This document shows positions 1,847 to 34,362 of a stretch of 64,000 bases of DNA, in pieces (position 1 is the stretch's first letter; each line of letters starts with the position of its first letter). The notes under the pieces are model-generated. The model was not told the origin of the DNA. It saw only the letters and a program-made list of their open reading frames with translations, and did no database searches. Made by a program: the position numbers and the translations under genes. The stretch is from Bradyrhizobium sp. (GTDB lineage: Bacteria; Pseudomonadota; Alphaproteobacteria; Rhizobiales; Xanthobacteraceae), in assembly GCF_027307225.1 (NCBI RefSeq), contig NZ_DAHUXJ010000154.1, forward strand, positions 1-64,000, written 5' to 3'.

Positions 1847-2908
1847 TTACGCCGTTTTTAGCGGCTTTCTGGCGCAAATCCGAAACAGGTGGCAGTAGCC
1901 AAGCTGGCACGGCTCGGTGGCCGGGAGACGGTTGCCGTTGCACAGATCGAGCCCCTCTGCGGAGCAGTATCGCCAGAGAGCGAATTGAATCCAACGCGGG
2001 AAAAGCTTCGGAAACCGCGGATTGAAGGTGCGAGCATCAATCCGGTCTGCGGCTCCTCTGATAATTTCGGCGCAGCCGCCCTCCGCGTAGCAGGCGGGAC
2101 CATAGGGGTGGGGGACACCGCAATCATCCAGAATCCCCGAGCGGGTTAGGAAGGCATGGACGAGGGTATCCACGACTATCATCGACACGCCCGCCTCAAA
2201 CCAGAGGGGCCGCTGTTCCCGAGAGCCGATGAGGAGGCCGGACAGCGCCATCGTCAGGAGTTTGTCCGAGACGCCGAAAATCTCCCGAAGAGGCCCAATT
2301 AATGCTTCCTGCCTTGCCTTTTCTAGGTCGGCGACTGGGGCGCGCGCTGCGGCTTTCAGTTGACCGTCGATCCAGCCGACGAGGTCGCTCTCGGCGATGT
2401 CCCGGACAAATAAAAAGAAGCTGAGGGCGATCTGGTTCAGTCGCCCGTTTCGCAAACGAAGGCGAGGTACCGGACACGCGTCGATACGATCCGGCACCGT
2501 GCAGGTGTGCCGAGTCTTTTCGTACCCGCAGTCTGCGTAGCTCCAAAATGAACGAAGCTTCGAGCATGGCGGAAAATCCGTGATACTTGCCTCTACCTGG
2601 GACCACGACGCAGTGCCGTGCTTACGCATGTATTCCCAAGCGGCTTGATCGGAAATTCCTTGAAAATTGAATGCTCGTAGGAGCCAATCGAAAATTGGTG
2701 GTGTTTGTCTTCGCGTGACCGCCTCTCGCAAGCCAGTGCCCCGGATTTCCTCGTCGATGTCGTCGAGGAAGGATAAGGGACCTGCAAATTCACAGACGGT
2801 TCGAATGAGCAATGTGGTGCGCTCACTCGGACTGCGATGCACAGAGGACAGTGGGCGTGTGGGTGCCGCGATCTGTTGCCGAGATCGGGCATGCGGAGGC
2901 GGACTCAA
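1847..2908 (-). CDS. Putative HhH-GPD (EndoIII/MutY-like) DNA glycosylase-related protein
   Basis: A 353-residue protein if translation begins at the TTG (2908-2906) whose last bases overlap the integrase stop as TTGA. Residues 212-216 (G-V-S-D-K) match the hairpin of helix-hairpin-helix glycosylases, and residues 246-255 (V-D-T-L-V-H-A-F-L-T) match the V-D-T segment holding the catalytic Asp of EndoIII/MutY. Near the C-terminus Cys323, 334, 339 and 345 give C-x10-C-x4-C-x5-C, similar to but wider than the usual [4Fe-4S] loop. Extra Cys residues occur at about 115, 127 and 136. Known members excise bases. The assignment rests on motifs by eye. Coupling to an integrase suggests a role in element maintenance or recombination, which is inference. 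Confidence 0.55.
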   Translation of the reverse strand: MSPPPHARSRQQIAAPTRPLSSVHRSPSERTTLLIRTVCEFAGPLSFLDDIDEEIRGTGLREAVTRRQTPPIFDWLLRAFNFQGISDQAAWEYMRKHGTASWSQVEASITDFPPCSKLRSFWSYADCGYEKTRHTCTVPDRIDACPVPRLRLRNGRLNQIALSFFLFVRDIAESDLVGWIDGQLKAAARAPVADLEKARQEALIGPLREIFGVSDKLLTMALSGLLIGSREQRPLWFEAGVSMIVVDTLVHAFLTRSGILDDCGVPHPYGPACYAEGGCAEIIRGAADRIDARTFNPRFPKLFPRWIQFALWRYCSAEGLDLCNGNRLPATEPCQLGYCHLFRICARKPLKTA

Positions 2909-3486
2909 ATCAGCGAAACCAATTTGCGCTGCGCATCCGTATCGCCGTCGATGTATCCCTGCGTGGTTTGTATTGAACGATGACCCGCAAGTAGTTGTAC
3001 ATCGCGGAGCGATCCGCCGGTCTTGTGCACCAGTCTCGCCGCCCTCGTGATAAACGTGCGGCGACCTGAGTGGGAAGAACACCCCGTCAAATCGAGCGCT
3101 TTGAACACACGATGAAACCAGACGACAATACTGAGAGGCGTCATAGCGCCGCCTTGCTGCGACCGGATCACAGGTCCTCGACCTGTGCTTTGGTGTCTGA
3201 CAGCGACAAGTGCTTGTCGTAGATCAGTATGAAGCGGAACCGACCTTCCACCACCCTTTTTCGCGACTTTGTCGTGAAGTTCGATGGTACTGCCAACTTC
3301 GCCGCTCGGATCGAGGATCATATCCCAAGTGAGCTTGGCGATTTCAGCCGCGCGAAGGCCAGCTTTCACTGACAATAACACGATCAGGCGATTGCGGTGC
3401 GGATGACGAGAGGTTTCGGCGAAATAAAGGAGTTCGTCGATATGATCAGTCGAAAGCGTCTTGGCCTGTCTGCCTGCCATCGTCAC
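2905..3486 (-). CDS. Tyrosine recombinase/integrase, catalytic domain only
   Basis: A 193-residue phage-type integrase. The catalytic set is complete: Arg45 (G-L-R-A-A-E-I), Lys77, His139-x-x-Arg142 (H-S-G-R-R), His169 (G-H-R-S) and nucleophile Tyr178 (T-Q-G-Y-I-D). Full-length integrases are 300-400 residues; this one lacks the N-terminal arm- and core-binding domains, so it is either a compact recombinase or a truncated one. No 5' coding remnant is evident upstream. Its stop overlaps the start of the glycosylase-like gene by TTGA, indicating one mRNA. It may mobilise this island, but distance from the visible att site leaves that open. Confidence 0.9.
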   Translation of the reverse strand: MTMAGRQAKTLSTDHIDELLYFAETSRHPHRNRLIVLLSVKAGLRAAEIAKLTWDMILDPSGEVGSTIELHDKVAKKGGGRSVPLHTDLRQALVAVRHQSTGRGPVIRSQQGGAMTPLSIVVWFHRVFKALDLTGCSSHSGRRTFITRAARLVHKTGGSLRDVQLLAGHRSIQTTQGYIDGDTDAQRKLVSLI

Positions 3487-5174: not shown

Positions 5175-6305
5175 GTGTCTGAAAATTCGTCCGACGCCTC
5201 AGTGCGATTTCTGCTTACTGAAAGACTGGCTGAGATTAGCTTCAATCCGGCACTTCCAGACGGCCTGACATTCGCTGATGCTTCATCGGGCGTGGAAATC
5301 ACCATCAAGCCAGAACGCCCCGACGGTTTTAGACCTCTCGTGTGCAAAGCGCGCGTAAGCCTCGCCGCGCCTGCCGCTGCACACAAGTTCATTACGTCAT
5401 TGCTTGCCCGTAAATTTGAAGCACATGACAAGATGCCTGTTGAGCTGCCTTACAAGGACCGCGACCGTACCTTGATTGCTGCTGACGGTTCAATTTCAGA
5501 AGGCTTTGGTGTGCCTTTCGAGCTGTATCCACTTGACGTGCAGGCCCTGTGCGACACAGCGCGCGAAATGCTCTTGCAGCGAGCCTATCGGCTGGTCCGT
5601 CTCCTGCGATGGCAACAGAATCTGGATGGTCCTCATTGGGTGTTCGATGGTGACCCTGCGCTGTATTGGAATGTAGGCGGCAGCTCGTACCAGATTGTGG
5701 GGCGTCGAGGGCAAGAACGAGTAGGAGCATCACCGGCTGGAATCGAGTGGAATGAGCTGGATCGCGCCGACCTGGATAGCGTCTGGAACGAAGCTTCTTC
5801 AGAAGAAAGTGTCGCTCATGAGCTTTTGAGAGAAGCCAAAGTTCTTCGAGAGCACTCCCCACGCAGCGCGTTTTTGATCGCTACTTCGGCACTGGAAGTC
5901 GGCGTTAAGGCGTATGTCGCGCACCTCTCTCCGGACACTAGTTGGTTGCTTTCTGAGCTGCCTTCACCTCCAATCCACAAAATTCTTAGGGCTTATATTC
6001 CGGAGTTGCATCAGCATCGGGGAACACCAATCGACTATTGGGGCAAGCTGAAGCCGTGGTTCAAGCGCGTTGAGTCTGGGGCGATCACTCGAAACAAGCT
6101 TGTTCATACGGGAGCGATACAGATCGAGCCAAAGGACCTTACGGCATACCTTCAGGATGTATCGGACTTGCTCTACTTGTTTGATATCTTGAGAGGCCAC
6201 GAGTGGGCCAAGCACAACGTTAGTTCCGCAATGAGAGCCGCGCTCGGCTGGCCATCATCGCGCCGAAAGCGCTACATCGTGCTGATGCGCTCGGGCGGCC
6301 TGTAA
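5175..6305 (+). CDS. HEPN-like domain protein of unknown function
   Basis: A 376-residue protein if it starts at GTG 5175, which has AAAGGAAC upstream; an in-frame ATG at 5079 would add 32 residues with no clear ribosome site. The N-terminal 200 residues are a mixed alpha/beta region I do not recognise. The C-terminal part (about 215-360) is helical, with A-F-L-I-A-T-S-A-L-E-V-G-V-K and later Arg306-N-K-L-V-His311, the R-x4-H signature of HEPN domains. HEPN proteins are often RNases in toxin-antitoxin or anti-phage systems. No obvious nucleotidyltransferase antitoxin is adjacent, so a defence role is inference from island context. Confidence 0.6.
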   Translation: MSENSSDASVRFLLTERLAEISFNPALPDGLTFADASSGVEITIKPERPDGFRPLVCKARVSLAAPAAAHKFITSLLARKFEAHDKMPVELPYKDRDRTLIAADGSISEGFGVPFELYPLDVQALCDTAREMLLQRAYRLVRLLRWQQNLDGPHWVFDGDPALYWNVGGSSYQIVGRRGQERVGASPAGIEWNELDRADLDSVWNEASSEESVAHELLREAKVLREHSPRSAFLIATSALEVGVKAYVAHLSPDTSWLLSELPSPPIHKILRAYIPELHQHRGTPIDYWGKLKPWFKRVESGAITRNKLVHTGAIQIEPKDLTAYLQDVSDLLYLFDILRGHEWAKHNVSSAMRAALGWPSSRRKRYIVLMRSGGL

Positions 6306-8235: not shown

Positions 8236-9240
8236 ATGACAGCAGTAACGCCTTTGGCGCGCCTTGAACGTGAGACGCTTCGCAAAGCATGGCCTAACGA
8301 GGCCAGTAACTTCACTCCGTGGCTGGCAGAAAAGGCCAATCTTGATCTACTTGCTGAGAGAATTGGCATCCCACTCCAGCTTGAAGCGGTTGAAAAGGTG
8401 GTCGGGTCCTTCTTTGCGGACATCTTAGCCAAGGAGGCTGATACGGGCCGATGGGTAATTATCGAAAGCCAGATCACGCCTACCGATCACAGCCATCTCG
8501 GGCAGTTATTGACGTATGCGGCTGGATTGGAAGCTAGCACGGTCATTTGGATCGCCGAGAATTTTCGGGAAGAGCACCGCGCAGCAATCGATTTTCTTAA
8601 TCGAGCTACTACCGAGGAGTTCGCTTTCTTCGGTGTGGAGATCGAGCTTTACAAAATTGGCGATAGCCCGCTTGCCCCCGATTTCTCGATTGTCGCGAAA
8701 CCGAATGACTGGGCAAAGAGAACGCTGACGGCAAAGCAGACTACGGCCACCGAAAAAGAATATCAGCGAGAGTGGAAGGACTACTGGCGCGCGTTGATCG
8801 AAGCAGCGAACGGCCGATATTCCGCCCTTGCTGAACGAAGTCCGTACAGAGAAAATTGGCAGGCGTTTGAAACTTTGAAAGGTGGCAACCCTAGCTTCGC
8901 GCTCAATGCAACATTCCCCTGGGATAAAAGTCTTCGACTGGAAATCTATATTCAGGGGTCTTTGGCGAAGGCCGGGTTCGCCGCGCTCCTTGCCCAAAAG
9001 GAGCAGATTGAGAACGCCTTCGGGGCACCGCTTGCATGGGAGGAATTGCCGGAAAGACAGGCTTCTCGGATCGCGTTTTATATGCCCGGCCTAGAGAAGC
9101 GCGGCGATCAGGCAACATGGGGAAAACAGCACGAGTGGTTGCTTACGTGGGGGCCGAAATTGGCAAGCGCTCTGAAGCCTTTTATGAGCAATCTCAAGCT
9201 TGCCGTGCCGGACATTGAGCATGATCGCTCGGCGCTTTGA
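8236..9240 (+). CDS. PD-(D/E)XK-like N-terminal domain fused to DUF4268
   Basis: A 334-residue protein. Residues about 50-165 look like a PD-(D/E)XK nuclease core: F-F-A-D-I-L, then W-V-I-I-E-S-Q in place of the E-x-K strand, and H-L-G-Q-L-L-T-Y-A-A-G-L typical of these proteins. The C-terminal 150 residues match DUF4268 (L-E-I-Y-I then L-L-A-Q-K-E-Q-I-E, W-E-E-L and R-I-A-F-Y-M-P-G). Such proteins are scattered in bacterial genomes, often on islands, and are suspected nucleases. Gln in place of the catalytic Lys is common in this group and may or may not abolish cutting. Substrate and biological role are unknown. Confidence 0.8.
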   Translation: MTAVTPLARLERETLRKAWPNEASNFTPWLAEKANLDLLAERIGIPLQLEAVEKVVGSFFADILAKEADTGRWVIIESQITPTDHSHLGQLLTYAAGLEASTVIWIAENFREEHRAAIDFLNRATTEEFAFFGVEIELYKIGDSPLAPDFSIVAKPNDWAKRTLTAKQTTATEKEYQREWKDYWRALIEAANGRYSALAERSPYRENWQAFETLKGGNPSFALNATFPWDKSLRLEIYIQGSLAKAGFAALLAQKEQIENAFGAPLAWEELPERQASRIAFYMPGLEKRGDQATWGKQHEWLLTWGPKLASALKPFMSNLKLAVPDIEHDRSAL

Positions 9241-12114: not shown

Positions 12115-13290
12115 CTATCGAATGGCGGAGATGCCGCGGCTTTGGCGTGGACGGCCAGACGTGAATAGCCCGCTGCACCTACTTCGCTCGATACATTTCG
12201 TGCACTCTTCAACGTAACCATTTTTCCAATCCGAGATCGACTGGACAGCATAAGGCCAAATACTGCGTTCGAGGACACACAGTGGGAGGTTGTAAACAGA
12301 GACATTCATGCCAATGGCGGCCAATGTCTGGACCCCCTCACAAAGGCTCTCCCGATAGTCAATCGGATCGATCCAAAGCGATTTTTCGTTAGCGAGCGCG
12401 AAACCAGTGTTTTCCATTCCCATTAAGGCGACGTGATCGACGAAGGGCAGATTTCGGGCAATCCAGCGACTAGTCTCGGCGATAATCGGTGCTGTGTGCG
12501 CATGTAAGACCACCCGCACTTCCACGCGTTGTCCTCGATCCTTAAGTTTCAAAATGCCTAGGATCGTTTCATCGAAGGCACCTTTGGCCTGGACAACGTA
12601 ATCGTGCAGATAGTCTACGGCTGCATATACTGGAATTGCCGCTATCAGGCTTCGATGACCTATAGCCTTCCAAGCGTCTACAATTGTCGAGTTAGCAAAT
12701 GCGCGCCCGTTTGTCAGAACTTGAATGGCGGTATTCGGAAGAAGGTCGCGGCAGTCTGCAATAACCCCGATAAAGTCAGTCCAATCTGAGAGCGGCTCGC
12801 CCCCCGTAAAAGTTAGAGTAGGAGTGCTTTTGGGAATAAGCGGCAAGCTCCGTTTTATCTCACTTAGAATCCAATTGTCGTCTATGTCTTTTGGTGGCTG
12901 GGAGCACATAAGGCAATAGTTGTTGCAGCGCTCGGTTACCAAGAATGAGTTGTGCCGGGAGCTCCTTCTAAACAGTGTCCGGAATTTTTTAGTTGGAATA
13001 TGGATCCCGAGGATATCGCCCGTATCCAAATAATCGAATTTGGCCGGTAGTGAAATTACCCTATTGAACAGGCTGGGCGACACGGGGGTATCAAGTGAGT
13101 CGCCGACCACAAATATTGAGTGGTGCTTTCCCTCAATTGAGCGGATCAAATCAACGGTCGATTTGACGAGCGAAAAATCGGAATCGTCGCAGGGTTCAGT
13201 GTCCGGCGATTTCAAACGAACAACGATCCTCGACGGCTCTCTCGCAAATCCCTCACAACTATCAGCAATCCCAAATAGCGGAAGCGTCAT
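12115..13290 (-). CDS. hxsC: HXS system radical SAM maturase HxsC
   Basis: A 391-residue radical SAM protein. The [4Fe-4S] motif is Cys122-x3-Cys126-x2-Cys129 (R-C-N-N-Y-C-L-M-C), followed by T-F-T-G-G-E-P at 160-166, the SAM-binding strand. A C-terminal cluster (E-C-T-K-C-I-E-R-S-R-C-S-G) may hold an auxiliary iron-sulphur centre. Its place as last gene after hxsB, and the C-S-Q-P-P-K after the cluster, fit HxsC of the His-Xaa-Ser system. ATG 13290 is chosen because it overlaps the hxsB stop as ATGA, giving translational coupling. The expected role is peptide modification of HxsA; the reaction is not known to me. Confidence 0.88.
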   Translation of the reverse strand: MTLPLFGIADSCEGFAREPSRIVVRLKSPDTEPCDDSDFSLVKSTVDLIRSIEGKHHSIFVVGDSLDTPVSPSLFNRVISLPAKFDYLDTGDILGIHIPTKKFRTLFRRSSRHNSFLVTERCNNYCLMCSQPPKDIDDNWILSEIKRSLPLIPKSTPTLTFTGGEPLSDWTDFIGVIADCRDLLPNTAIQVLTNGRAFANSTIVDAWKAIGHRSLIAAIPVYAAVDYLHDYVVQAKGAFDETILGILKLKDRGQRVEVRVVLHAHTAPIIAETSRWIARNLPFVDHVALMGMENTGFALANEKSLWIDPIDYRESLCEGVQTLAAIGMNVSVYNLPLCVLERSIWPYAVQSISDWKNGYVEECTKCIERSRCSGLFTSGRPRQSRGISAIR

Positions 13291-14744
13291 ATCCCTGCCC
13301 ACTGCCGTAGAATTGCTGCGTCCTTCGGAGAGCTTTCCAATATTTCGAGCAGCAGACGCATTGTTCCCTTCTGCCGTTCGCAGAAGTCCGAAAGGGGCTT
13401 GATGCCGAGCATGTCACCTTGAGTGGCGTGGTGATGAACCGGGTTCGCCCCGCAGTGGCTTTCAAACACGCAGTCTGAGCATTCGGGGGCGCATTGGGTC
13501 AGAGAAGCTGAAATTGCCTCGATTAATGTGTCCGACAGAACAAGCGAGCGGTAGTCATGAGTGTCAACATGGCCAAGACGAAATGCGTTGTCGCCGGTCT
13601 CCGCAAGCATGCGTCCCTCGTCAGAGGCATATACACTTCCATCATAATTATAGACCAAAGCGCCTATTCCAATTCCAGCCGGACTGCGCAGATCAACGTA
13701 GCCGATTGGTTTGTCTGTAAGCATCCTGGTCAGGACCAGCGCGGAGTAGAACTCACGGAACGGGGTACCTTTGTGATTGATATCTAGAATGCGTCGAAGA
13801 CCTTGTTCGAAGAAACGAAGCCAGCGCTTCGTATCGTAACGTTGATACTGCTTCGTTTTAATGGCGAAGCCAAACGGCGATAACGGTCGGAGAAAAATGC
13901 CTTCTAAGCCGAGCTTCAAGTATTCATCGATGATTTCATCGACGCGATCCAAGCTGGCTTCGGTTGTCGTCATAAGTGCGCCGACGCGGTCTTTGCCAAG
14001 CGCCTCTTGTGCCCTGCGGATGCCACTAGTCGCCAATTCGTAGCTGTTTCCGCCCGGTCTAGGTCGATTCTTGTTATGTAGGTCTAAGGGGCCATCAAGC
14101 GAAGTCGATAGAAGGACTCCATTCGCTTTGCAGTATTCCAAGATTGAAGTGTTCAGTAGGGCGAGGTTAGTCGCAATTACGAAGTCAACCTGCTTGCCGC
14201 GCGTTGTGGATTTTGTGTTAGCCGCTTGCACAATTTTCTGGATTAAGCCGAAGTTGAGAAGGGGCTCGCCTCCTTGGAATTCAATCTTAATTCGTGATGA
14301 CTTGCTTTCGAACGCAATATCTAGCGCTCGCTGAGCGGTCGTTTCGCTCATGTCAAATCGCGAACGATCTGTACTCTGACGCGAGACTTGGCAATATGGG
14401 CACGAGTGCTCGCAGCGCAACGTCACGACAAACATGTGCAAAGGTGTCATTTCCCGCAAGAATGACATCCGGCTCCGAAGACGGAGAGCGAGAAGCTGCT
14501 GCTGAGCCTTTTGCTGAGTGCCAGTGATCAGGTGAGCGGCGTAAGCCCTTTCGTATAACCCGTCTCCGGGCTTCAGCTTAAGGTCAATGACGTTGTTGAT
14601 TTCATCCTCGGTCAGTCGGATGAAATCGCCCACCATATTGGAAACTAGGAATTGTGCGTTTCCCGTGCGCTCAAAATTGAACGGCAGAAGGGTAAGCTCA
14701 CCGCTTGGCGAGCCGAAAGCTTCTACGTTAGCAAAACGGGCCAT
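13287..14744 (-). CDS. hxsB: HXS system radical SAM/SPASM maturase HxsB
   Basis: A 485-residue radical SAM enzyme. Cys111-x3-Cys115-x2-Cys118 (R-C-E-H-S-C-P-Y-C) binds the reactive cluster and G-G-E-P (158-161) contacts SAM. Near the C-terminus Cys418, 422, 425, 431 and 455 form a SPASM-like set for auxiliary clusters, as in peptide-modifying radical SAM enzymes. The first 95 residues may act as a peptide-recognition region. It lies 18 bp after hxsD and overlaps hxsC. Together with HxsC it should install a modification on HxsA, probably at the H-x-S repeats. That target is inference. Confidence 0.9.
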   Translation of the reverse strand: MARFANVEAFGSPSGELTLLPFNFERTGNAQFLVSNMVGDFIRLTEDEINNVIDLKLKPGDGLYERAYAAHLITGTQQKAQQQLLALRLRSRMSFLREMTPLHMFVVTLRCEHSCPYCQVSRQSTDRSRFDMSETTAQRALDIAFESKSSRIKIEFQGGEPLLNFGLIQKIVQAANTKSTTRGKQVDFVIATNLALLNTSILEYCKANGVLLSTSLDGPLDLHNKNRPRPGGNSYELATSGIRRAQEALGKDRVGALMTTTEASLDRVDEIIDEYLKLGLEGIFLRPLSPFGFAIKTKQYQRYDTKRWLRFFEQGLRRILDINHKGTPFREFYSALVLTRMLTDKPIGYVDLRSPAGIGIGALVYNYDGSVYASDEGRMLAETGDNAFRLGHVDTHDYRSLVLSDTLIEAISASLTQCAPECSDCVFESHCGANPVHHHATQGDMLGIKPLSDFCERQKGTMRLLLEILESSPKDAAILRQWAGI

Positions 14745-14762
14745 GCTGAGCAGTTCTACGCG

Positions 14763-15110
14763 CTAGTTGTTAGCTTGGTCGGCTGCCAACGATCCAAAGG
14801 CGAGCGCCAGTATTACATTCCGGATACCGGACGTTTTCCTCGCCACTTGCGCTCTCAAGTTCTCGTCGGTGACAAAGTCCAGAAAGCGCGCCCTTAGTCT
14901 ATCCGGATCCTCCTCCACACGCCCAGAGGGCCCGTGCTGAATTTCAAGATGACAAACGAATTGGCCGTTTACTTCCTCAATCCGGCACGCCGCGGTTCCG
15001 ATTAGACGATAGGCAGCCGCCTGCAAGGCATCCAAAGTCTGGACGCTCGCATCGAAATCTACGGTAATCGAAGGTCGCGGCTCGTGCTTCTCAGTATCGG
15101 CTTGAGGCAT
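14763..15110 (-). CDS. hxsD: HXS system small protein HxsD
   Basis: A 115-residue protein. It begins F-D-A-S-V-Q-T-L-D-A-L-Q-A-A-A-Y-R, has a short beta-hairpin (F-V-C-H-L-E-I) and ends with R-N-V-I-L-A-L-A-F-G, matching the HxsD family. ATG 15110 lies inside the last codons of hxsA, so the genes overlap by 20 nt and are translationally coupled; an ATG at 15128 is also possible. HxsD has no catalytic motif and may act as a chaperone or recognition element presenting HxsA to the maturases. That role is inferred from size and conserved position. Confidence 0.85.
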   Translation of the reverse strand: MPQADTEKHEPRPSITVDFDASVQTLDALQAAAYRLIGTAACRIEEVNGQFVCHLEIQHGPSGRVEEDPDRLRARFLDFVTDENLRAQVARKTSGIRNVILALAFGSLAADQANN

Positions 15111-15390
15111 GTGATGCGTGAGACGCATGAGAAGCGTGGGAAGTGTGAGACGAATGCTGGGCCACCAACGTTCCGTCTGGCTGCTGAGTCATCACAAAGC
15201 CGAGTAGATCATCGCCCACTCGGTAGTGCGCGTTTGGTTCCAACCGTGGAACGGAGTTCTCTGTACCGACATTTGTAGCGTTCGAATCCGTTGCCGCTGT
15301 TGCGTGCGCTTCGGTGCCGAGCACCTGAGCGCCAGTCAAAGATGCAATCGCAGTTCCAAGTGAAAGAATCTTTTTGGAAGTGACAGACAT
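15091..15390 (-). CDS. hxsA: His-Xaa-Ser repeat protein HxsA (modified precursor)
   Basis: A 99-residue protein. ATG 15390 has GGGGGA 8 nt upstream. Residues 1-27 resemble a signal or leader (K-K-I-L-S-L-G-T-A-I-A-S-L then A-H-A). A middle region (28-78) is unremarkable, and residues 79-96 consist of six consecutive H-x-S triplets (H-S-S, H-T-S, then H-A-S four times) before the final S-R-Y. The Ala and Ser codons differ between copies, so the peptide pattern rather than the DNA repeat is kept. This C-terminal tract is the presumed substrate of the radical SAM enzymes HxsB and HxsC. Product and function are unknown. Confidence 0.9.
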   Translation of the reverse strand: MSVTSKKILSLGTAIASLTGAQVLGTEAHATAATDSNATNVGTENSVPRLEPNAHYRVGDDLLGFVMTQQPDGTLVAQHSSHTSHASHASHASHASSRY

Positions 15391-15510
15391 CAGGCAAATC
15401 CCCCGGCTCACGTGTTGGCGTTATGAAATGAAAAGCACCATTTTGCGATTGGTTGCAAGTATCAGAGGGGACCAACTTTAGATTAAAAACACTTCTTTGG
15501 CAGCCCTAAT

Positions 15511-16074
15511 CTAACTTTTCCGGTCCGCTCCGCCCCGCTTTTGCGCGAGCAACTGGACGACAGCCGCTCTCTGAGAGGGGGGACCGACCGGCCTTTCCTT
15601 GCATAGGACTAGCTCAAATCCCTGGAGTGCCTCTGGAATCTCGCCAAGCTTTGGCAATTCGAGATAGTTTTGGCCTTGGCCCCCAAAGGTCTCGACGTAA
15701 AGCCATCCACCATCTTTTAACGCAGTGCACAAATCCACAATGACCTTCTGCACCGGATAATGGATGCAGAGAATTGCTGAAAATGATGAGTTCCGAAAAG
15801 GCAATCGGCTCGCGACAAGGTCGGCGCAGAGCGTGACAATCCTTCCTGACCCGGTCGATTGCAATGCGCCAGACACTTCGACCGATTTGAGACGTGCAAC
15901 ATCGTTATCGACCGCAATCACGTCGTACCCGCGGGAAGCCAGAGCCAGCGCGTTTCGCCCGAAACCGCACGGGGCGTCCAAAACCGGCTGGTCATAGGAT
16001 GAAGCCACTCGGTCGAGGACTTGCATCAAAAATTTAGACGGAGCGAGCGAAGGTACCGGCCTGCTTGTAGGCAC
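15511..16074 (-). CDS. Class I SAM-dependent methyltransferase
   Basis: A 187-residue Rossmann methyltransferase. Motif I is L-D-A-P-C-G-F-G-R-N-A (32-42), motif II ends in the acidic pair V-D-N-D, and a later strand reads A-I-L-C-I-H-Y. It lies 120 bp upstream of hxsA on the same strand, so it might be transcribed with the HXS genes, although a promoter could fit in the gap. Small methyltransferases of this type act on metabolites, rRNA or peptides. A role in modifying HxsA is speculative. Length is slightly below the usual 200-250 residues. Confidence 0.75.
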   Translation of the reverse strand: MPTSRPVPSLAPSKFLMQVLDRVASSYDQPVLDAPCGFGRNALALASRGYDVIAVDNDVARLKSVEVSGALQSTGSGRIVTLCADLVASRLPFRNSSFSAILCIHYPVQKVIVDLCTALKDGGWLYVETFGGQGQNYLELPKLGEIPEALQGFELVLCKERPVGPPSQRAAVVQLLAQKRGGADRKS

Positions 16075-16142: not shown

Positions 16143-17075
16143 TCACGGATGCTGTTCGTTCTTTGCGGCGCGCATTCCTTGTGTAGCAGTATCTCTTTCA
16201 CACATATACGCGCCGTCTTTGGTGTTTCCGTAATTGTGAGTTCCCGCAAAATGATAGATTTTGGACCGCAAGTTCACCCAAACAACGGTATCTCCCAAGC
16301 AGGAAGCCTTCGCTTGAGCCTCAGTTGCGTATTGGCCAGTTCCGGACGGCGATCCGGTGGATGGTGCCCGTTGCGTAGTACCGTAGGGCGGTTCTGACGA
16401 CGGCCTTGAAGCGGTTGGTGCAGGCGGCGGTGACGGTGACGGTGGCGGTGGGGCGGCAGTCGTCGTAGGCGCTGGGGCAGGGGCTGGAGCCACCGTAGGC
16501 GTTGCGACAGTTCCGGCCCGGCATGCCGCGACATACGCTCTTTCTGTGATGCCTCTAGCTTGGAAGTTGGCTTTATCAGCACGCCATTCTTCGGTGCAGG
16601 CTTTAGCGGTTTTTGCCCCCGCATTGCCTTCAGGCGCTGTTGCAACAGGAGGAGGCGCAGCCGTCGGCGCTGGACTTGGTGCAGCGGTCGGGGTTACGGC
16701 GGTCCCGGCGCGACAAGCAGCTACGTATGCTCTTTCCGTGATGCCCTTAGCCTGGAAATTCGCTTTATCCGCCCGCCATTCTTCGGTGCAAGCTTTGGCG
16801 GTCTTTCCGCCCGTGCCGCTACCTGGAAAGGTCGTGCTGGGTGCCGTCGCTGTGGGGGCTGAAGGCGGAGCAGTGGTAGGGACTGCCGCCGTTCCGGCCC
16901 GACACTGCGCTACATATGCCTTCTCTGTAATGCCCTTCGCTTGGAAATTGGCCTTGTCCGCTCGCCACTCTTCGGTGCAAGCTTTAGCGGTCTTCCCTTG
17001 AGCCAATACGGGGATGGAAAACGCGAAGAAACCGACTATGACAGCGCCGGTTGATACTAGAATCAGTTTTTTCAT
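16143..17075 (-). CDS. Exported protein with three C-x-E-E-W repeats and Pro-rich spacers
   Basis: A 310-residue protein with a signal peptide (M-K-K-L start, cleavage near V-L-A-Q-G) and a GGGAGGA ribosome site 6 nt before ATG 17075. The mature region has three near-identical units of about 35 residues, each carrying K-A-C-T-E-E-W-R-A-D-K-A-N-F-Q and ending Y-V-A-x-C-R-A-G-T, separated by Ala/Pro/Thr spacers. Two Cys per unit suggest a disulphide-closed hairpin module, seen singly in many Bradyrhizobium exported proteins. The C-terminal 60 residues (V-V-W-V-N then Y-H-F-A-G-T, Y-G-N-T-K) form another small domain common there. Probably an envelope protein; binding partner unknown. Confidence 0.7.
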   Translation of the reverse strand: MKKLILVSTGAVIVGFFAFSIPVLAQGKTAKACTEEWRADKANFQAKGITEKAYVAQCRAGTAAVPTTAPPSAPTATAPSTTFPGSGTGGKTAKACTEEWRADKANFQAKGITERAYVAACRAGTAVTPTAAPSPAPTAAPPPVATAPEGNAGAKTAKACTEEWRADKANFQARGITERAYVAACRAGTVATPTVAPAPAPAPTTTAAPPPPSPSPPPAPTASRPSSEPPYGTTQRAPSTGSPSGTGQYATEAQAKASCLGDTVVWVNLRSKIYHFAGTHNYGNTKDGAYMCERDTATQGMRAAKNEQHP

Positions 17076-17162
17076 TAAACATCCTCCCAGCAAATGCAAT
17101 TGACGGTTGTCAGCTTAACATAAGACTCTCAACGCCGTCATTCCCACCTAAAGCATGTTAAC

Positions 17163-18980: not shown

Positions 18981-19028
18981 GCGTTCGGGACGCAGGGGTC
19001 GCAGGTTCGAATCCTGCCGCTCCGACCA
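18981..19028 (+). other. 3' fragment of tRNA-Pro(CGG): island attachment site
   Basis: The 48 bases give the anticodon loop TTCGGGA (18984-18990, anticodon CGG at 18986-18988), the T arm GCAGG-TTCGAAT-CCTGC (19001-19017), the 3' acceptor strand CGCTCCG (19018-19024), discriminator A and encoded CCA. Upstream of 18981 the sequence no longer pairs with the anticodon stem and there is no D arm or 5' acceptor strand, so it is not a functional tRNA. This is the displaced original 3' end left when an element integrated in the tRNA gene; the restored tRNA should lie at the island's other end, off-window. Confidence 0.85.
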
Positions 19029-34172: not shown

Positions 34173-34220
34173 TAGTTCGCCATTGACGTATTTCATCCTC
34201 CGATGCAGCATGCCTCCGTT

Positions 34221-34362
34221 CTCAGGGCAGGGTGAAACTCCCTACCGGCGGTATGCAGCGTCATTTGCTGCGAGCCCGCGAGCGCCTTCCTTCGGGAAGG
34301 GTCGAGCAGATCAGGTGAGATGCCTGAGCCGACGGTGAAAGTCCGGATGAAAGAGAACGCGC
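34221..34362 (+). ncRNA. FMN riboswitch (RFN element)
   Basis: The conserved RFN blocks are present in order: AGGGCAGGGTGAAACTCCC, ACCGGCGGTATGC, GAGCCCGCGAGCG, GATCAGGTGAGATGCCTGAG, and CCGACGGTGAAAGTCCGGATG followed by GAAAGAGAACG (each block shortened to at most 20 bases here or read at 34221-34358). It precedes ribB by about 280 bp and senses FMN to shut off riboflavin synthesis genes. Between aptamer and gene lies GC-rich sequence with potential hairpins that could serve as the expression platform. Confidence 0.95.

Follow-up and report, generated by a model that had tools for sequence, protein, structure and literature searches.

What does a His-Xaa-Ser (HXS) cassette make, and where does its product act? 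The question is raised by four contiguous genes, hxsA-hxsD-hxsB-hxsC, read from the sequence on the minus strand at 12115-15390 of a 64,000-nucleotide stretch of Bradyrhizobium sp. DNA (contig NZ_DAHUXJ010000154.1; hereafter the window). HXS is already a named family, and the window carries a member of this known, unexplained family on a real island. An earlier note on this DNA had taken the four genes as a complete cassette for a radically modified peptide, and had stated that the families are named while modification, product and function are unreported. The latter statement agrees with the open-licence literature searched for the HXS names and model numbers, the available excerpts of which report no modification, product or function, although newer work may exist. 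In such excerpts, HXS appears in an annotation list for Pseudomonas aeruginosa (PMC8446631) and is remarked on in a Vibrio genomic region (PMC6537148), and a survey of radical S-adenosylmethionine (SAM) enzymes credits Haft and Basu with its prediction (PMC9062424).

The explanation that we favour, at a probability of about 0.45, is that a cassette of the HxsA2 type, together with an accessory methyltransferase, makes a crosslinked, exported comb. What is new here is an unnamed methyltransferase family that recurs beside hxs genes and, from this recurrence, looks like an unrecognized fifth member of the set; an HxsA that appears to be exported, with predicted peptidoglycan-binding tails in the long proteobacterial forms tested; and a start of HxsB that resembles the recognition element (RRE) of ribosomally synthesized and post-translationally modified peptides (RiPPs). 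The methyltransferase travelling with the cassette and the display-type anatomy of HxsA are what raise the finding, and a conserved tract, an export signal, a likely recognition domain in HxsB and an optional methyltransferase give a previously vague question a clearly testable form. If confirmed, serial His-Ser crosslinking of a displayed protein would add a new surface chemistry to those of soil and clinical bacteria.

The cassette and its precursor

The precursor gene, hxsA2 (15091-15390, minus strand), encodes 99 aa with an export-signal-like N terminus and a tract of six H-x-S triplets (15103-15156, minus strand), followed by Ser-Arg-Tyr and the stop codon. It starts with ATG, and an alternative in-frame GTG at 15411 is possible. 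The gene for the small partner protein, hxsD (14763-15110, minus strand), overlaps it by 20 nt; a longer hxsD start at 15128 is possible, and the overlap is retained because the Met of MPQ/MSQ is the start common to near relatives. A gap of 18 nt separates hxsD from hxsB (13287-14744, minus strand), which shares an ATGA overlap with hxsC (12115-13290, minus strand); hxsB and hxsC encode the two radical SAM maturases. The contiguity of the genes on one strand, the 20 nt and ATGA overlaps and the six triplets near the end of HxsA, all described in the earlier note, were confirmed in the sequence.

Against the curated NCBIfam models, HxsB scored 602.8 bits with TIGR03978 (cut-off 370), HxsC 370.3 bits with TIGR03977 (cut-off 267.9) and HxsA 61.6 bits with the HxsA2 model NF038296 (cut-off 48). 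With the classic HxsA model TIGR03979 the window HxsA reached 28.3 bits, below the cut-off of 121.65. The search with HxsA-D profiles that had been proposed was thus borne out for HxsB, HxsC and HxsA (as HxsA2) and failed for HxsD, which scored 38.5 bits with TIGR03976, below its cut-off of 50. A separate HxsD profile was therefore built from 39 sequences, leaving out the window's clade. It matched the window HxsD at 77.6 bits (E 2e-23) and, at E values up to 10, no other of the 573 stop-to-stop frames of at least 60 residues in the window; judged by this profile, hxsD is a true but divergent HxsD. The NCBIfam matches and the independent profile together uphold the reading of the genes as precursor, partner and two maturases, and by its sequence the locus is almost certainly an HXS cassette of the HxsA2 type. 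It has the RiPP hallmark of a ribosomal precursor gene adjoining genes for modifying enzymes.

Known HXS systems of the HxsA2 subtype (NF038296, TIGR03976-03978) are alike in precursor, partner, both maturases and the order A2-D-B-C; the window differs in an HxsD below the NCBI cut-off and in an adjoining methyltransferase without an NCBIfam name. Classic HXS with HxsA (TIGR03979), for example on Klebsiella plasmid CP067827, has the same two maturases and an H-x-S tract, but differs in its order, D-B-C-A, in a longer HxsA and in the tail described below. On the Acidiphilium plasmid pACRY02 (L202), a frame at 5514-5984 on the plus strand scores 66.9 bits (E 9e-21) with the HxsD profile. The gene table of this plasmid lists nothing between hxsA2 and hxsB; the PLSDB tables are incomplete, and a missed annotation is possible.

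The window tract reads HSS HTS HAS HAS HAS HAS, then SRY. Its six triplets are encoded by six different DNA units, with three CAT and three CAC codons for His and TCT, TCC and TCA for Ser, and among 10 hxsA genes of the Bradyrhizobium type His and Ser are constant while third codon positions vary. Since all six units differ and synonymous codons are scrambled, the repeat is maintained by selection on the protein.

Comparisons drew on named hxs loci (L), the best 80 of at least 548 confirmed, many of which are from Pseudomonas and Bradyrhizobium; several of the contigs do not extend over both flanks. A set of 99 HxsA open reading frames (ORFs) was collected by the H-x-S pattern. Its members are not independent, some starts are over-long, and, as the search pattern dictates His and Ser, only X and the flanks are informative. 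L115 and L148, which duplicate L049 and L047, were excluded from the count, as were genus loci already present among the named ones, and the pattern found no HxsA in L061, L132, L161 and L168. In this set, tracts comprise 4-11 triplets, most commonly 5 or 6. Of the 591 triplets, 582 have S, A, R, Y, G, H, V or T as X; Glu occurs there once, and Asp, Lys, Pro, Leu, Phe and Trp never. Ala stands at position -2 before the tract in 82 of the 99 ORFs, and a hydrophobic residue or Tyr occupies -3 in 91 of them and -4 in 75.

An export-signal rule, written after a looser hydrophobicity rule had proved weak (96 of 99 ORFs against 56% of shuffles), was passed by 94 of the 99 ORFs, the window HxsA2 included, against 27.4% of 4950 shuffled N termini. 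Most of the ORFs (77) stop at or near the tract, and 22 extend more than 60 residues beyond it, 12 of these being proteobacterial. PG_binding_1 exceeded its cut-off in all seven tested of the 12 long proteobacterial proteins, and two of the 10 long proteins from other groups have a sub-threshold match to PEGA. A folded domain after the repeat sits badly with a small released peptide, and display outside the cytoplasm is therefore suggested. From these features HxsA is probably exported and displayed. A small released peptide is therefore less favoured here than a displayed protein, which fits better with an HxsA that looks exported and in some cases extends past its repeat.

The same features bear on a more conventional RiPP pathway, in which a short modified peptide would be cut off, released and act on competitors or kin as a bacteriocin or signal. 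Such a peptide would suit the shortness of HxsA2, with the repeat at its end, the second hxsA copies found in L103, L106, L110, L113 and L125, and carriage on plasmids and islands; the further domain after the repeat in the long HxsA forms speaks against it. Clustering of neighbour proteins over 97 loci gave 23 clusters common to at least four loci, of which six are short HxsA, long HxsA, HxsB, HxsC, HxsD and the methyltransferase. Among the Pfam-checked representatives of 16 other recurrent clusters (L120:2-2305 stood outside this check) there is no protease. These clusters include regulators, signalling proteins, dehydrogenases, a helicase, a transposase, a nuclease, an ATP-binding cassette (ABC) ATPase, an FtsX permease and an L,D-transpeptidase. 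The ABC ATPase occurs near hxs at seven loci and the FtsX permease at four, but three members of each cluster lie in near-copy Pseudomonas loci. Taken together, release of a conventional RiPP seems improbable. The clusters of LysR (15 loci) and the ABC ATPase were set aside as chance neighbours, showing mixed strands, scattered distances or near-copies within one genus. In L106, L110, L113 and L125, the two H-x-S-tract ORFs are consecutive, differ in their X residues and stand ahead of hxsB.

The maturases and an adjoining methyltransferase

Each maturase has seven invariant Cys. In HxsB these are C111/C115/C118 and C422, C425, C431 and C455 (22 of 22 sequences), and in HxsC, numbered in a 395 aa frame starting at 13302, C126/C130/C133 and C342, C367, C370 and C376 (21 of 21 sequences). 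The SPASM auxiliary motif has seven Cys. Beyond the radical cluster, HxsB and HxsC have four each, which falls short of that pattern and would be enough for one further cluster. The radical SAM and SPASM-like Cys sets that the earlier note had seen in HxsB therefore hold as regards the radical cluster, while the four C-terminal Cys are not a full SPASM set.

By sequence, the solved structures nearest to HxsB are 5wgg and then anSMEcpe; those nearest to HxsC are SkfB and others, at far weaker scores. The best NCBIfam scores of HxsB outside HXS were with PapB (111 bits), followed by other peptide maturases, SCIFF (79 bits) and the anaerobic sulfatase-maturing enzyme (anSME; 72 bits). PADLOC matches of HxsB and HxsC to viperins, weak and limited to the radical SAM core, were rejected.

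In the AlphaFold2 model of HxsB (predicted local distance difference test score, pLDDT, 86.1), residues 22-97 (14454-14681, minus strand) have the element order of an RRE, with three helices following three strands. The model aligns with 5wgg from residue 20 (Z 34.0, root-mean-square deviation (rmsd) 4.2, 406 aligned residues, 19% identity). With anSMEcpe (4k38) the Z score is the same, 34.0, and the alignment starts only from residue 98 (rmsd 2.9, 354 aligned). ChlB (9gm3, 9gmc) gives Z 33.0, rmsd 2.8 and 20% identity over 349 aligned residues; it shares the radical SAM core with HxsB and differs in aligning only from residue 99. TigE (8vpo) aligns from residue 13 (Z 26.4, rmsd 4.7, 390 aligned). 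The enzyme of 5wgg, which we take to be CteB, a SCIFF maturase, resembles HxsB in its radical SAM core and has an N-terminal recognition domain, to which the RRE-like start of HxsB may correspond; it forms thioether bonds, whereas the window tract is without Cys. On the model, the N terminus of HxsB is likely to be an RRE-like domain.

The AlphaFold2 model of HxsD (pLDDT 91.5) has the order strand-helix-strand-strand-long helix. It found no Foldseek match at E 0.001 or better, and its best VIA-align Z score, 7.9, lies within the range of common arrangements; the HxsD profile returned three rows from solved structures, a designed helix bundle being the top match (E 0.0086). A PqqD-like RRE was considered for HxsD and is not favoured, since the order E-H-E-E-H does not fit three strands followed by helices. 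Because the RRE-like start is found in the HxsB model and the HxsD model has no confident match, recognition of the precursor probably lies in HxsB, with HxsD as a helper. No relatives of HxsD were found in viral contigs.

Upstream of hxsA by 120 nt, on the same strand, lies a gene for a class I SAM-dependent methyltransferase of 187 aa (15511-16074, minus strand; PF13649, 37.8 bits, cut-off 27). No NCBIfam model names it, the best match reaching 29.6 bits against a cut-off of 303. In the neighbour clustering its family occurs at 10 of the 80 named hxs loci, in three phyla: two further Bradyrhizobium (one copy broken), Acidisphaera, three Pseudomonas, Methylobacter, Methylovulum, Mycobacterium and an acidobacterium. 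Its position varies, before hxsA, after hxsC or, in Mycobacterium, by a second hxsA, and is always on the same strand; the overlap with hxsC is 4 nt in L137 and L152, and in L117, L140 and L166 its start lies no more than 30 nt from hxsC.

The link with hxs holds in genome scans, in which 23 (genus) and eight (phylum) first-look candidates per genome were scored. At E 1e-20 the family is present in two of 146 genus genomes, both hxs-positive and both with the copy at the hxs locus; the broken copy, in genome G063, reached E 1.7e-20. Over 398 phylum genomes, the window methyltransferase reached 240 bits, as against 96 bits for the highest-scoring gene from any genome lacking an HxsB match. As the model had been trained on hxs-linked members, a leave-one-lineage-out test was run; left-out members scored 107-171 bits and the best outsider 83-93, the outsiders being the 19 best-scoring other loci of the phylum scan. 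At E 1e-12 there is a single match in nine of the 10 host genomes, and a weak second one in the remaining genome. On a quick HxsB tree (90 rows, with long-branch warnings; L115, L125, L132, L148, L161 and L168 left out), the trait requires eight changes, six of them forced by starred branches, against a mean of 10.6 after shuffling, and 5 of 500 shuffles were as low. The methyltransferase thus comes and goes, in the manner of an accessory enzyme. It is very probably a true member of the set, and the four-gene cassette cannot be called complete in so far as this family recurs with it.

Two queries gave no match to the methyltransferase on plasmids, which therefore provide no independent test of linkage. 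The L117 protein scored 29.1 bits with a mercaptohistidine N-methyltransferase domain (cut-off 170), a hint at most. An association with an Arg-Tyr end of HxsA (5 of 11 positive against 1 of 61 negative rows) was formed post hoc and set aside, only two independent tree pairs differing (median p 0.5).

A proposed mechanism

In the mechanism that we propose, synthesis of HxsA2 in the cytoplasm would yield a precursor bearing an export signal and, at its C terminus, the H-x-S comb. HxsB, through its RRE-like domain and with the help of HxsD, would grip this precursor, perhaps at the conserved hydrophobic-x-Ala-x stretch before the repeat. HxsB would then take hydrogen from Ser C-beta and join the Ser to the imidazole ring of the His at i-2, which would give a row of i/i+2 His-Ser crosslinks along the tract, and HxsC would perform a second radical step of unspecified kind. 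In the HxsA2 subtype, the methyltransferase would methylate the modified tract, either at imidazole or at a group made from Ser. Once exported, HxsA would act beyond the cytoplasm as a rigid comb that might bind metal; classic HxsA would be anchored to peptidoglycan, and HxsA2 would be free or anchored in another way.

We infer this chemistry by analogy with other radical SAM enzymes. In anSME, PapB and the cyclophane-forming enzymes, hydrogen is abstracted at a side-chain carbon that adjoins the backbone (Ser C-beta in anSME), and TigE acts on repeats of Ile. According to a review that covers the triceptide enzymes, the bond made by HaaB connects C2 of His with C-beta of Ala, that of YhhB connects C2 of His with C-beta of Arg, and that of MscB connects C4 of Phe with C-beta of Ser; the class links residues i and i+2 (PMC11002830). 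HXS is alike in this spacing, in having His or an aromatic residue first and in Ser, a known acceptor in that class. The same review describes TvgB as modifying many Val along Thr-Val-Gly-Gly repeats (PMC11002830). TvgB and TigE resemble HXS as radical SAM enzymes acting on repeats; they differ in their Val (TvgB) or Ile (TigE) repeats and in a cyclopropane product. As H-x-S shares the i/i+2 spacing, with small residues or Arg/Tyr in between, a His-Ser crosslink is favoured, with Ser oxidation next. A crosslink in each triplet is put forward tentatively, as a serious possibility. HxsB scores far below the named cyclophane models, and the comparison is therefore one of likeness to that class, not of membership.

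Were Ser oxidized instead, HxsB would convert it to formylglycine or aminomalonate without a link to His, and the methyltransferase would esterify or cap the new group. Anaerobic sulfatase maturases and some of their relatives oxidize Ser in this way. anSMEcpe ties as the best structural match of HxsB and is second among its solved sequence relatives, and Ser is fixed at the third triplet position. Oxidation would, however, leave unexplained both the second radical enzyme and the His, which is just as constant as Ser at the first triplet position, and the anSME score of HxsB, 72 bits, compares with an NCBIfam cut-off of 349.45. We regard it as unlikely.

His at every third residue also invites the suggestion that the comb serves mainly as a ligand for copper, zinc or nickel at the cell surface, the modification tuning the binding. 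The His-crosslinked peptide noursin is reported to bind copper and to need its crosslink to do so (PMC10206099). No metal-resistance gene is listed in three annotated regions, although two of these gene tables, from PLSDB, are incomplete. A mainly metal-binding role is thus rather doubtful, as is metal binding by the crosslinked comb of the preferred mechanism.

Several findings weigh against that mechanism. HxsB lies below every cyclophane-maturase cut-off among the matches listed (25 of 49), its best scores being 66.8 bits with YhhB (cut-off 445), 58.2 with GrrM/OscB (310) and 46.5 with FxsB (370), and it is closer to PapB, a ranthipeptide (thioether) maturase, than to the cyclophane maturases. 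The known three-residue cyclophane enzymes carry the seven-Cys SPASM set, and the four auxiliary Cys of HxsB are fewer. As for display, all 10 long HxsA proteins from outside the proteobacteria reach no Pfam cut-off, and the window HxsA2 has no Pfam match and hence no peptidoglycan-binding domain. The methyltransferase is dispensable, as it was not found near most hxs loci examined and is broken in the closest relative, L089, and its gap of 120 nt to hxsA falls short of proving one operon. A more specific extension, that a dedicated methyltransferase family methylates a new type of product, serial His-Ser crosslinks carried by an exported protein, so that the window would encode the methylated variant of a chemically hardened, methyl-tuned surface imidazole comb spread between phyla by mobile elements, is speculative and, on balance, would be somewhat surprising.

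Island, distribution and neighbouring genes

The island end is a 48 bp copy of the 3' end of tRNA-Pro(CGG) at 18981-19028 (plus strand), 100% identical to positions 38116-38163 of contig C4 of the window's own genome (G000:C4:38116-38163). On C4 a Sua5 gene precedes the intact tRNA-Pro(CGG), which is followed by a gene for a 402 aa integrase (PF00589, 32.5 bits, cut-off 27.1); ARAGORN found no complete tRNA in the window. The exact copy and the integrase gene after the intact tRNA therefore support the tRNA-targeted island of the earlier note, and the tRNA-Pro-targeted island is real. We infer that C4 joins the window's contig. A second tyrosine recombinase is encoded on the island at 2905-3486 (minus strand; PF00589, 62 bits, cut-off 27.1). 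Evidence on whether the right flank of the island end is the native flank points both ways: in the related genomes G001, G002, G003 and G006 the gene to its right and tRNA-Pro(CGG) are both present, yet are not neighbours, while stretches of 59 and 44 nt that directly follow the tRNA end match sequence beyond an intact tRNA-Pro in L066 and L070.

With a threshold of E 1e-60, and with the window's genome counted in each set, HxsB matches occur in 12 of the 146 genus genomes (11 exceed the cut-off), in eight of the 297 order genomes and in 15 of the 398 phylum genomes (14 exceed the cut-off). Among 72,556 plasmid records, 375 hold relatives, and 316 of these records are from Klebsiella; two of 50,697 phage records hold relatives as well. 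The distribution of HXS is patchy but taxonomically wide. In L100-L104, HxsB from Mycobacterium, Mycolicibacterium and Nocardia is 64-67% identical to that of the window, and these rows adjoin alphaproteobacterial rows on the quick tree; transfer between phyla is probable from this placement. In L103 a second hxsA is followed by the methyltransferase. A Leptospira phage record, KF114877 (L201, 5242-8551), holds a full hxsA-D-B-C set near a transposase.

Patchiness, and damage to two of the 12 genus HxsB copies (split into two frames in G047, and reduced to a C-terminal piece in G081), would be expected of a decaying island hitchhiker without present function in its host. All four window genes are open, however, and all radical and auxiliary Cys are kept. 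The ratio of non-synonymous to synonymous substitution rates (dN/dS) against the nearest relative, L089, is 0.068 (hxsA), 0.165 (hxsD) and 0.047 (hxsB). Synonymous sites of hxsC are saturated in this comparison, as are those of hxsD, hxsB and hxsC against L090. Where dS could be estimated, the cassette genes are under purifying selection (dN/dS 0.05-0.17), and a functionless hitchhiker is very hard to credit. At the two genus loci with damaged HxsB (L045 and L046), hxsC is open.

Among the non-hxs neighbour clusters, a secreted repeat protein confined to Bradyrhizobium stood out by adjacency. In the window it is encoded at 16143-17099 (minus strand), is secreted-looking and has three copies of a CTEEWRADKANFQAKGITE-type repeat (a 158 nt DNA repeat, 70-75% alike). 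Neither this protein nor the copy in L091 has a Pfam match; relatives lie near hxs, on either side, in six of the 80 named loci, all Bradyrhizobium. The L,D-transpeptidase cluster near hxs comprises four loci and lies on the opposite strand. On the same island, a gene at 8236-9240 (plus strand) matches the candidate defence family PDC-S11 at 359 bits, the one strong PADLOC match among 10 window proteins scanned, and DUF4268 at 74.8 bits (Pfam). The conflict role that the earlier note suggested for the cassette from its place on the island is a possibility. Elsewhere in the window, a flavin mononucleotide (FMN) riboswitch at 34214-34362 (plus strand, 111.4 bits) is the sole Rfam match at gathering scores.

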